A stretch of 64,000 bases of DNA, taken from the NCBI RefSeq assembly GCF_018139645.1, contig NZ_JAGSPM010000001.1, positions 558,001 through 622,000 of the forward strand, read 5' to 3'. This DNA is from Affinundibacterium baiyunense. GTDB taxonomy: Bacteria > Pseudomonadota > Gammaproteobacteria > Burkholderiales > Burkholderiaceae_D. The notes beneath the pieces were generated by a model. That model was not told where the DNA came from. It worked only from the letters and a program-made list of their open reading frames with translations, and ran no database searches. This document shows, piece after piece, positions 9,695 to 13,740 of the stretch. Numbering within the stretch: position 1 is the first letter of the stretch; the number at the start of each line of letters is the position of its first letter. A program made the position numbers and the translations under genes.

Positions 9695-9771
9695 CGGGGC
9701 GTAGCGCAGCCTGGTAGCGTACATGCATGGGGTGCATGGGGTCGCAAGTTCGAATCTTGCCGTCCCGACCA
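9695..9771 (+). tRNA. tRNA-Pro (anticodon GGG)
   Basis: A 77-base cloverleaf can be folded by eye. The acceptor stem pairs CGGGGCG with CGTCCCG (one G-T pair). The anticodon arm is CATGC-ATGGGGT-GCATG, giving anticodon GGG. The T-arm carries GTTCGAATC, and CCA is encoded at 9769-9771. The body closely matches other bacterial tRNA-Pro genes (GCGCAGCCTGGTAGCG in the D-arm). Confidence 0.95.
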
Positions 9772-9955: not shown

Positions 9956-10039
9956 TTAGTTCAATTTTTTCAAATTGAGCACATCGTTGATTTATCAAAA
10001 AACCTGCGCACTCAGTACACAGGGAGCGCGCTTCAATTG

Positions 10040-11302
10040 CTATGGAGTGGCTTTCTTTACTGGCTTAAGAATGTGACAGTTCTCTTGCAAAAATCGAAGG
10101 GCGCCGCTGTAGTTCGTATCCCAGTCATCAACCAGATAGGTTTGCGCTTCGTCAGCAAATTCTTGCCAATCAGCGAGTAAGCCCTCTTGTTTTTCGTGTG
10201 GAGCGGTTTGCTTGATCCATGCATTTGCCTTCTGAACATCCAAACCTTGTTCTCGCACTTTCTTTACAATCTGCTTCGCCGTTTTCTCTGGCAAACTTGT
10301 CTTCGCAGGCACATCTGTTGCGACGCAAAGCAATAAGGTAAGCAAAGAATCGATATCGGTTTTCCCTTTAGTGAGCTTCGACCATTCTTTAGAAACCAAG
10401 GCATCGTAATCCGATGTATCTTCCATCTCGTGAGCACAAATGAAATAGCGCTCTTTCAGCTCAAACACAAGGCGATCGAGCGAATGCTTTAGATCCAATA
10501 TCAATACCAAATCACGCTTGAGAATTTCATCTAATACTTGCAAACACAGGGGATGAAACTTGCTTGGAATATCCACATCCAGAAGCAGCGACTTCGCTTG
10601 TTCTACATCGAATAATGCAGATTTCTTCGCTTTCGTTTTACTTTTTGCTTGAGCGCGTATCGCCTCAATAATTTGAGCGAATTCAACTTGATTTTCAATC
10701 GGTGCATCGCCATCACCAATTAAAAGTTTCAAAATACCAGATCGAATAACGCCGCTGGCTTCCGCATCGTCTTCTTGCAATTCGGCTTGCGTTAAATCCA
10801 TTGAGCGCGCGAACCACAATGCAGCTTCAATCTCCAATGCATTTTGCTGACGGTGAGCAAGCAAGTTTCTATATTCGCTAGGCTTATCTTTTAAAGACCA
10901 CACTTCTAAAAACTCTTCTACTGGCGATTTCTGCTCTCGCCCTAACAATGCATACTCAGGCATCGCATGTAAGGTCTTGAGCAAACCAGAACCGCCGCGT
11001 GACAAAGTCAAGAAGGTATTATCGCGAATTAATTTGGCTGCAATGTCCAAATCACCTTTTGAGGTTTCAAGCAAATAAAGACTAGCAAGATTGACGATAC
11101 GCTTACGTGCGGTCTCAAGCTCGGGACGCAAATATTTACTACCAAAGGCATCAGCGATCTGCACCAAGCCTTTTGGTGCCTCTGCATCAATCGCCTCAAT
11201 TTTTGCGCGACTGATGATAGCAAATCGCAAACCATGACGTAGCGCCGTCTCAAAAAAAGGACGGTCATCGTATATTGCAATAGCTTGTTGAGTTTCAGAC
11301 AT
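10040..11302 (-). CDS. Protein of unknown function, last gene of J-domain operon
   Basis: I do not recognise this 420-residue protein. It has no signal peptide or membrane segment and looks mostly helical, with several charged Lys/Glu-rich stretches. A basic patch AQAKSKTKAKKSA lies near residue 225, and the C-terminus ends in a basic KPVKKATP. An upstream TTG at 11308 is in frame, but the ATG at 11302 is the better start although its ribosome-binding site is weak. It follows the preceding gene by 24 bases and is the last of four leftward genes that start with a J-domain protein. A role as a cytoplasmic client or partner of that J protein is inference. Confidence 0.7.
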   Translation of the reverse strand: MSETQQAIAIYDDRPFFETALRHGLRFAIISRAKIEAIDAEAPKGLVQIADAFGSKYLRPELETARKRIVNLASLYLLETSKGDLDIAAKLIRDNTFLTLSRGGSGLLKTLHAMPEYALLGREQKSPVEEFLEVWSLKDKPSEYRNLLAHRQQNALEIEAALWFARSMDLTQAELQEDDAEASGVIRSGILKLLIGDGDAPIENQVEFAQIIEAIRAQAKSKTKAKKSALFDVEQAKSLLLDVDIPSKFHPLCLQVLDEILKRDLVLILDLKHSLDRLVFELKERYFICAHEMEDTSDYDALVSKEWSKLTKGKTDIDSLLTLLLCVATDVPAKTSLPEKTAKQIVKKVREQGLDVQKANAWIKQTAPHEKQEGLLADWQEFADEAQTYLVDDWDTNYSGALRFLQENCHILKPVKKATP

Positions 11303-11326
11303 AATCAAATTAGCTTATTCCCTAGC

Positions 11327-12097
11327 TTACAAAGCAGACTCTTCGTCGTCATCATCGCCATCGTCATTATTCTTTTTAGGTGCATCAACTTCCTCGTCAT
11401 CACTTTCTTCTGCGACCGGAGATTCAGCGAATTCATCGTTTTGCAAATTGCGTAGATACACTTGATAACGCGCACGCAATTTCATCAAAACTTCACGGAA
11501 AATCTCAGGTAATTCATAGCGCAGCAGATAGGTGACTTCCATCCAATCATGATCTTCAACACTTGCTCTATCCACGGCAGAAGCACGTGTCTCAGTATCG
11601 CGCGTCAAACTCAACAAATCATCATCAATCGCTTGGGTTTTACTTTCATCGCCATATTCATACAAATCAAATGTCGCATAGCGATAGAAATGTTCCACCA
11701 TCTGCGTGCGATCTTGCAGATAATCCGCTAATGCATCGTAGCCGCCCTCCACCTCTGCAATTTCGTATAAAAATTCGGCGGCATCAGCACCATCACGAAA
11801 AATCACCGAATTAATCATGCCTCGCAATTGTTCATGCGTCAGATCAGCATAGCGCTTCTCTAGCACCACTGCTTGCGCAAACTGTTCAGGTGTCACCAAT
11901 AGATTCACCAATGACTCTTTTGACGCATCGTATTCGCGAATAATCGCAAGCAAATCTTTTGCAGGAAATTCATCCAAAGCAGCAACCAATGCTTGATCAC
12001 CTTCGGTTTCCGCCAAGTTTGCCAATGCATGTTCTGCGCCTGCAATATCACCTAGCTGGATCAAATTTTGCGCTTCAATTAAAGCTGGGACACTCAT
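11327..12097 (-). CDS. Protein of unknown function with acidic tail, J-domain operon
   Basis: This protein of about 256 residues is not recognised. The body is helical (for example LIQLGDIAGAEHALANLAETEG, which resembles a helical hairpin repeat). The last 40 or so residues are strongly acidic (DDEEVDAPKK ... DDGDDDDEESAL). The ATG at 12097 is chosen because AAGGAAT sits just before it; an upstream in-frame start at 12151 has no such site. There is no signal peptide. It lies 62 bases after the previous gene and 24 before the next. Acidic tails of this kind often occur in chaperone or nucleic-acid mimicking proteins, but nothing here proves either. Confidence 0.72.
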   Translation of the reverse strand: MSVPALIEAQNLIQLGDIAGAEHALANLAETEGDQALVAALDEFPAKDLLAIIREYDASKESLVNLLVTPEQFAQAVVLEKRYADLTHEQLRGMINSVIFRDGADAAEFLYEIAEVEGGYDALADYLQDRTQMVEHFYRYATFDLYEYGDESKTQAIDDDLLSLTRDTETRASAVDRASVEDHDWMEVTYLLRYELPEIFREVLMKLRARYQVYLRNLQNDEFAESPVAEESDDEEVDAPKKNNDDGDDDDEESAL

Positions 12098-12159
12098 TTT
12101 TATTCCTTTTTTTTCACTCAATGTTTGATCAAGACAAGATATCAATAGCACAGCTACGT

Positions 12160-12750
12160 TTAATCTTTGCGATCAAATCCTTGCTCTGCTAACCAATCCA
12201 TACCAGCCTCTTCCAGATCTACATCGTCACCGTCATCACCATCATCGCGACCATGACGACCATAGTGACCATCGAGATCACCTTGCTCATACATGTCAGC
12301 TTCTTCTTGTGATTCATCATCGCTAGCATCGTCTTCATTACTTGTTGCCATCGCTCGCGTATGGTGGCTGCGGCTTAAATATTCCAGGCAGGCAGCCGTC
12401 ACCAAGAAAGTATCGCCCCCCTCTTCCGCCAGCACCATTTGCGCCATCTTCTCTGCCCACGGCTCTAGCTTCACCGCAGCAGCCAAACTCTTCCAAGTTG
12501 GCAGCTTACTGGCTTCTTTGGATGCAAGCGCTTCAAAACTTAAGGGATTCATGAAAAGAAATGCCTCATGAAAAGCAGGCGCCAACATTTCGGGATTGCT
12601 CGTCATCATTGGTAGCAAGAAGCGTAATTGCTCACGCTTCTCTTTTAATCGATGGCGCATCACATCTTTACCTTCAGAATCAGAACGTAAATCATCTAAC
12701 TCTGCTTTGTATGCCAACATTAATTCTTGAAAATAGCGTGAAAATTTCAC
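12160..12750 (-). CDS. Protein of unknown function with acidic tail, overlaps J-domain gene
   Basis: The protein of about 196 residues is not recognised. A helical N-terminal part (FSRYFQELMLAYKAELDDLR) is followed by a Trp-containing segment and then, from about residue 130, a very acidic region with a His/Gly patch (GHYGRHGRDD). It ends in EEAGMDWLAEQGFDRKD. I choose the GTG at 12750: AGGAG is placed 7 bases before it, and the GTG overlaps the TGA of the J-domain gene (GTGA). The longer ATG frame from 12780 would run far inside the J gene. The overlap points to tight translational coupling. Confidence 0.75.
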   Translation of the reverse strand: MKFSRYFQELMLAYKAELDDLRSDSEGKDVMRHRLKEKREQLRFLLPMMTSNPEMLAPAFHEAFLFMNPLSFEALASKEASKLPTWKSLAAAVKLEPWAEKMAQMVLAEEGGDTFLVTAACLEYLSRSHHTRAMATSNEDDASDDESQEEADMYEQGDLDGHYGRHGRDDGDDGDDVDLEEAGMDWLAEQGFDRKD

Positions 12751-13025
12751 TGCATCACTCCTGACAAATAATTCTTCCAAATTTCGGTCGCTGTTTCTAA
12801 TGGCGACTCTAGTAAATTACGCCGACGATTTTCATCATAAGATGCGCGCGCGGATTCATCAGAAAGCACGTCATACGCTTCTTTAACCGCATGAAACTTT
12901 ACTGGAGCCAATTCCGAACTATTACGGTCGGGGTGAAACTCCGCGGCTTTAACTCGGTAAGCTTTTTTGATGTCGGCTAAACTCGCGTTGGTGGCGACAC
13001 CGAGAATAAAATAATAGTCTTTCAT
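12747..13025 (-). CDS. Small J-domain (DnaJ-like) protein
   Basis: This 92-residue protein is little more than a J-domain. It starts MKDYYFILGV and carries the HPD motif at residues 31-33 (AEFHPDRN) and the helix EAYDVLSDESARASYD. J-domains bring clients to DnaK and stimulate its ATPase. No Gly/Phe linker, zinc finger or C-terminal substrate domain is present, so client binding may come from the co-operonic proteins (inference). The start at 13025 matches the usual J-domain N-terminus; upstream in-frame codons lack a ribosome-binding site. It is the first gene of a four-gene leftward operon, 230 bases downstream of slyD. Confidence 0.9.
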   Translation of the reverse strand: MKDYYFILGVATNASLADIKKAYRVKAAEFHPDRNSSELAPVKFHAVKEAYDVLSDESARASYDENRRRNLLESPLETATEIWKNYLSGVMQ

Positions 13026-13254: not shown

Positions 13255-13740
13255 TTAATCATCATGATGATGACCGTGCTCACCATGCACATGACCGTGG
13301 GCAATTTCTTCTTCGGTTGCAGGACGAACCGCTAAAATTTCTGCTTCGAAACGCAATTTCATTCCTGCTAATGGGTGATTACCATCAACTGTGACCAAGC
13401 CAGCATCAATCGCCGTGACACGAAATTGCGCAGCCTCTCCCGTTTCTGGATCACGCGTCTCAAACATCATGCCAACCTCTAAATCAGGTGGGAATAAACC
13501 AACATCTTCTTCATGAATTAAACTTGGGTCAATTTGTCCAAACGCATCATCTGCCTCCATAGAAACAGAAATAGTCTTACCTACAGTTTGCCCTTCAAGA
13601 GCAGCTTCAACCGCAGGCAAAATATTGTCGTAACCACCGTGCAAATACACGATAGGATCATGATTTTTATCGATCAAATTGCCTTGCTCGTCGAACATGG
13701 TGTAGTTCAAGGTGACTACAGAATCTTGAGAAATTTGCAT
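13255..13740 (-). CDS. slyD: FKBP-type peptidyl-prolyl isomerase, SlyD-like
   Basis: The 161-residue protein has the SlyD layout: an FKBP half (VTLNYTMFDEQGNLID, and the LPAVEAALEGQTVG block), an inserted IF chaperone flap at about 70-125, then the second FKBP half (NHPLAGMKLRFEAEIL). The C-terminus is His-rich (HGHVHGEHGHHHDD), which would bind nickel or other metals. It acts as a cytoplasmic folding helper and metallochaperone. It lies upstream of the J-domain operon on the same strand, separated by about 230 bases. Confidence 0.93.
   Translation of the reverse strand: MQISQDSVVTLNYTMFDEQGNLIDKNHDPIVYLHGGYDNILPAVEAALEGQTVGKTISVSMEADDAFGQIDPSLIHEEDVGLFPPDLEVGMMFETRDPETGEAAQFRVTAIDAGLVTVDGNHPLAGMKLRFEAEILAVRPATEEEIAHGHVHGEHGHHHDD

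Follow-up and report, generated by a model that had tools for sequence, protein, structure and literature searches.

A divergent atcJABC operon with a longer AtcC in Affinundibacterium baiyunense and related Burkholderiales

The atcJABC operon of Shewanella oneidensis (SO_1850, SO_1849, SO_1848 and SO_1846) is presented as a cold-growth operon by Maillot et al. 2019 (PMC6715715). According to that report, S. oneidensis AtcJ is a protein of 94 residues, which consists of a J-domain and a 21-residue tail, and the genes downstream of its gene are atcA (540 bp), atcB (759 bp) and atcC, the last of which encodes a 34 kDa protein. Growth of S. oneidensis at 7 °C is crippled by deletion of atcJ, atcB or atcC, but not by deletion of atcA. 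AtcJ stimulates DnaK, and AtcC binds the tail peptide of AtcJ with a Kd of 80 nM, full-length AtcJ with a Kd of 7 nM, and also AtcB (PMC6715715). The same report draws an analogy with HscB-IscU, in which a class C J protein has one dedicated client. AtcB of Shewanella contacts RNA polymerase according to a meeting report (PMC7871303). Three other articles (PMC8215388, PMC10495460 and PMC8548654) cite Maillot et al. 2019 in passing.

The stretch of DNA analysed here, termed the window, is 64,000 nucleotides long and derives from Affinundibacterium baiyunense. Four genes are arranged on its minus strand from position 13025 to position 10040, and encode in this order a J protein of 92 residues (12747..13025) and proteins of 196 residues (12160..12750), 256 residues (11327..12097) and 420 residues (10040..11302). 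The GTG start codon of the second gene overlaps the stop codon of the first gene in the sequence GTGA, and gaps of 62 nt and 24 nt separate the second gene from the third and the third from the fourth. The four-gene operon with this overlap and these gaps, as given in the original prediction, is confirmed by the coordinates of the open reading frames. The genes are closely spaced on a single strand in the order atcJ-atcA-atcB-atcC, which is the gene order of S. oneidensis, and the sizes of the J, A and B proteins are similar to those of S. oneidensis. A terminator-like hairpin with a stem of nine pairs, followed by TTTTTT, is located directly past the fourth gene (10003..10023, minus strand), and may represent the end of the operon; it is a match to the consensus only, and six such sites are found between 9800 and 13900 as compared with 3.3 expected. 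The closest named relative is Undibacterium macrobrachii (L004), in which the four proteins are 97 to 100% identical to those of the window.

Reference operons were gathered with the NCBIfam AtcC model. Of 398 genomes that represent the phylum, 3 exceed its cut-off, and so do 25 of 197 genomes from the taxonomic order of one of these, the first three being included in the 25. The reference set is anchored by one operon (L021), because its proteins exceed the cut-offs of all four NCBIfam Atc models, and its gene order is the same as that of the window. An intermediate set consists of four loci with weak AtcC matches from the same class and another order. The A, B and C genes occur in this order in all 25 reference loci and all four intermediate loci. 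They are preceded by the J gene in 24 of the 25 reference loci and all four intermediate loci, often by the end of the J gene alone, at which the fetched stretch stops, and the only reference locus without it (L062) is located at a contig end.

None of the window proteins reaches the cut-off of the NCBIfam equivalogs NF050028, NF047888, NF047889 and NF047890, and for this reason the operon is regarded as a divergent homologue that lies outside the equivalog as NCBI draws it. When the window-type profiles are compared with the reference-type profiles by hhalign, all four slots pair with their counterparts: 99.45% for J, 94.65% for A (over 102 columns), 85.13% for B and 87.90% for C (over 231 columns). 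The window-type B protein also pairs with the intermediate B protein (91.07%), and no pairing with the intermediate set is obtained for A (1.19%) or C (2.10%). Twenty-four pairings of wrong slots between the window type and the reference and intermediate sets give 4.19% at most, and when the columns of the window-type A, B and C profiles are shuffled, 40 times for each protein, no pairing exceeds 3.66%. These controls weigh more than the E-values of hhalign, because the comparison of pairs of profiles is not a database search. For these profiles, one locus with a run of N (L007) was left out of A and one at a contig end (L048) was left out of C; L043 has no C owing to a contig end, and the C protein of L007 was kept, though cut at 393 residues. 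The J profiles exclude J proteins shorter than 86 residues and contain three reference rows and one intermediate row. The proteins in slots A, B and C are homologous to AtcA, AtcB and AtcC by this comparison with the reference set, and are the three proteins that had been considered unassignable. The operon, for which an undescribed system had been proposed, is a form of the atcJABC operon reported for S. oneidensis (PMC6715715). It is a real, conserved operon and a divergent homologue of the described system with a longer AtcC. By this assignment, four unnamed genes of Undibacterium and its relatives are connected to a known DnaK cold-growth module, to which a long form of AtcC is added.

The AtcJ-like protein contains a J-domain at residues 3–64 (Pfam DnaJ, 77 bits) with the HPD motif at residues 31–33, and a C-terminal tail of about 28 residues remains. 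The NCBIfam AtcJ model NF050028 matches residues 1–86, and thus reaches into the tail, at 57.7 bits against a cut-off of 150. P75 and W83 of the tail are separated by seven residues and constitute a P-x7-W motif (12777..12803, minus strand), which is likely the AtcC-binding segment, judging from its sequence. The window AtcJ shares this motif with 19 of the 22 AtcJ proteins from other Burkholderiales loci, all 24 of the reference type and all four of the intermediate set, as compared with 2 to 5% expected for shuffled tails. In the AtcJ proteins of L044, L048 and L050, the proline is kept and the tryptophan is replaced by Ala, Ser or Phe. The tail is likely of a conserved partner-binding type, matching the short AtcC-binding tail of Shewanella AtcJ, which is likewise a minimal J protein. 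The original prediction that the protein is almost only a J-domain is correct with respect to the HPD-bearing domain, but not with respect to the tail, and the view that it has no client-binding part does not agree with the similarity of the tail to that of AtcJ. A search of PDB sequences with the J protein matches J-domains. The abstract of Weber et al. 2023 is said to describe AtcJ homologues with a PX7W motif in beta- and gammaproteobacteria. The model NF050028 itself is named ActJ, and its description is doubled, apparently through a typing slip, as a result of which the model is easily overlooked.

The AtcA-like and AtcB-like proteins both have acidic C-terminal tails, in agreement with the prediction of such tails for two of the three partner proteins. 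The mean fraction of Asp and Glu in the last 45 residues is 0.39 for A (22 proteins) and 0.31 for B (23 proteins) in the window-type set. The A-like protein gives no match to Pfam or NCBIfam, including the Atc models, and the B-like protein gives no significant match to Pfam or NCBIfam, and none at all to the Atc models. PDB sequence searches with A, B and C give no credible match, and the structure model of AtcB is poor, with a mean pLDDT of 46. A role of the operon in defence or in phages is unsupported, because searches of Pfam, PHROGs and PADLOC yield no informative match for any of the A, B and C proteins. An apparent fusion of A and B in L007 was dropped, as a run of N is located between A and B in that locus.

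The AtcC-like protein of 420 residues matches the NCBIfam AtcC model NF047890 with an E-value of 9.5e-5, and its score of 22 bits is far below the cut-off, which is 370. AtcC proteins of the window type (21 in the set) are 402–420 residues long where complete, and one of 393 residues is cut by a contig end, as compared with 296–306 residues for the reference type and 289–306 residues across all other sets. The long form has roughly 120 to 165 extra residues at the C-terminus; the window AtcC is about 120 residues longer than that of S. oneidensis. In the window, the extension covers approximately residues 262–420 (10043..10519, minus strand), and it is missing from the forms of 289–306 residues. 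It is not matched by the short AtcC forms in hhalign comparisons (0.13 to 1.08%) or by the short AtcC, A, B and J profiles taken together (0.12 to 1.08%), and resembles the N-terminal part of its own AtcC faintly (8.36%). A Pfam search with the extension alone gives no credible match. The structure model of AtcC is good solely for most of residues 142–415, which are confidently predicted to be helical, and the extension is mostly modelled as helices at pLDDT above 80. Foldseek with this model gives nothing at an E-value of 0.001 or better, and VIA-align gives no Z of 5 or more, but the absence of structural matches for a predicted model is no demonstration of a new fold. We found no description of the long form in the literature on AtcJ and atcJABC, within which Weber et al. 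2023 may contain one.

The window AtcB matches proteins in 14 of 300 Burkholderiales genomes, from 10 of 134 genera, at an E-value of 1e-5. In all 13 genomes other than that of the window, AtcB is preceded by J and A, one J gene being cut at its start. It is followed by C in 12 of them (cut by the contig end in one), and the contig of the thirteenth ends inside B. A scan with AtcC yields nine contigs, the titles of which name Undibacterium, Oxalobacteraceae or Burkholderiales. The four-gene order is the same in each of them, the fourth gene being cut by the contig end in one. The J-A-B-C order and the long AtcC are also found in all ten further loci, one of them from a genome already counted among the 13. 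By these results the genes stay together across Burkholderiales, which is the check suggested with the original prediction. Within Oxalobacteraceae, the family of the window, the AtcB profile matches 56 of 116 genomes: 31 strongly (11 genera) and 24 weakly (5 other genera), and the remaining match is fragmentary and contains a stop codon. Thirteen of the 31 genomes with a strong match, from 5 of the 11 genera, were inspected (the genome of the window, L026, L051, L052 and nine of the further loci), and all of them have the J-A-B-C order and the long AtcC. The fragmentary AtcB is located on contig C22 of a 1.7-Mb genome (G1260), in which the gene is broken up and interrupted by a stop codon, a state that resembles decay during genome reduction; a genome of the same genus (G170) carries the whole operon. 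A class-wide search of 369 genomes with the window-type AtcB profile matches the genome of the window alone. This search is silent on the absence of Atc from those genomes, because a plain HMM search with this profile fails to link the window-type AtcB to the reference AtcB.

The Oxalobacteraceae genomes with a weak AtcB match contain a second form of the operon, termed type 2, for which 12 of the 24 genomes (L097–L108), covering all five genera, were sampled. All 12 have homologues of J, B and C in the same order and an open reading frame in the A slot. The type 2 AtcC is 289–302 residues long and bridges the two forms, pairing at 97.76% with the window type and at 94.82% with the reference type; its pairing with the intermediate C is poor (4.18%). 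The type 2 B protein pairs poorly with the reference B (1.34%) and the intermediate B (34.95%), and the type 2 A protein does not match any other A profile (3.51% at most). The A slot is the most variable of the operon. The P-x7-W motif is present in 3 of the 12 type 2 AtcJ proteins, and in all 12 if Pro or Ala is allowed at the first position. The five genera assigned to type 2 by AtcB score and the 11 genera with strong window-type AtcB do not overlap in the genomes sampled.

The operon is very probably a divergent Burkholderiales atcJABC, in which the tail of AtcJ would dock on AtcC and DnaK would be brought to the AtcC-AtcB complex, and the outcome would most likely be growth at low temperature. 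By analogy with the Shewanella homologues, from which the protein contacts and the role in cold growth are transferred to this organism, AtcJ would serve as a minimal class C J-domain protein, the HPD-bearing J-domain of which stimulates DnaK and the short P-x7-W tail of which contacts AtcC. AtcC would in turn bind AtcB, and the complex would direct DnaK to whatever AtcB and AtcC hold, the AtcB contact named in the Shewanella meeting report being RNA polymerase. AtcA, which is dispensable for cold growth in Shewanella, would be accessory. Several points speak against the assignment to atcJABC: the NCBIfam cut-offs are not reached, AtcC is longer, the intermediate set yields no pairing for A or C, and three of the 22 other Burkholderiales AtcJ proteins lack the tryptophan. 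The first of these points would also be expected from a new J-protein system that is unrelated to atcJABC and similar to it merely in the order of its genes, but such a system is highly improbable, since the profile of each slot pairs with its reference counterpart, the wrong-slot and shuffled controls are clean, and both groups have the motif in the tail. It is also highly improbable that the operon is part of a folding cluster linked to SlyD, with SlyD as a component of the module. The slyD gene is located at 13255–13740 on the same minus strand, 229 nt upstream of the start of the J gene, and 11 of 38 loci have a SlyD match next to the operon. However, these 11 are the nine contigs of the AtcC scan and two genomes of the genus of the window, and slyD is not detected at an E-value of 1e-8 in the fetched stretch of the other 27 loci, one of which (L047) starts within the J gene. 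SlyD is a local neighbour only, and does not add the folding theme that had been read into its position, because it lies beside the operon in only these 11 loci.

Another reading, which we regard as unlikely, is a re-purposed Atc module, in which the same bridge from AtcJ through AtcC to DnaK is retained, but DnaK is led to another target by the longer AtcC and by acidic tails that differ, and the phenotype is other than cold growth. The lack of a counterpart of the C-terminal part of the 21 window-type AtcC proteins (393–420 residues) in the short AtcC, the recurrence of the long form in the further loci, the confident helical model of most of residues 142–415 of AtcC and the dissimilarity of the type 2 A protein to any other A are consistent with such a change. 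However, the window operon shares with the cold-growth operon its J-domain, the motif in the tail, a large part of AtcC and, in AtcB, the N-terminal half, and an extension need not alter the target. A related proposal, for which we likewise claim little probability, is that one Burkholderiales family holds two or more Atc subtypes, which occur in separate genera among the genomes sampled, that the conserved helical C-terminal domain of the window AtcC anchors DnaK to a target that replaces, or is added to, that of Shewanella, and that Atc is a general adaptor, the targeting end of which has been exchanged between lineages. The natural variants, namely AtcJ without the tryptophan, short and long AtcC and different A proteins, provide material for the study of tail docking and of targeting by AtcC.

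The original idea that the J protein and its partners are a dedicated module and recruit DnaK for one particular target is well supported, because the genes stay together across Burkholderiales, dnaK is encoded elsewhere in the genome, and the Shewanella homologues bind one another and stimulate DnaK. In this genome, dnaK adjoins the gene of DnaJ at its own location. The principle is the same as that of HscB-IscU, in which a small J protein is encoded with its partner and Hsp70 is sent there. Unlike in that system, AtcJ is a different J protein, and a separate J-domain match, read as HscB, is located near a second HSP70 in the same genome. The genome contains three J-domain matches at an E-value of 0.01, namely DnaJ, the HscB-like protein and AtcJ, and therefore offers a clean setting for the study of a dedicated J protein. 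Rfam gives a single match between 9400 and 14200, a tRNA-Pro (GGG) at 9695–9771 on the plus strand, which is located downstream of the operon and on the opposite strand.
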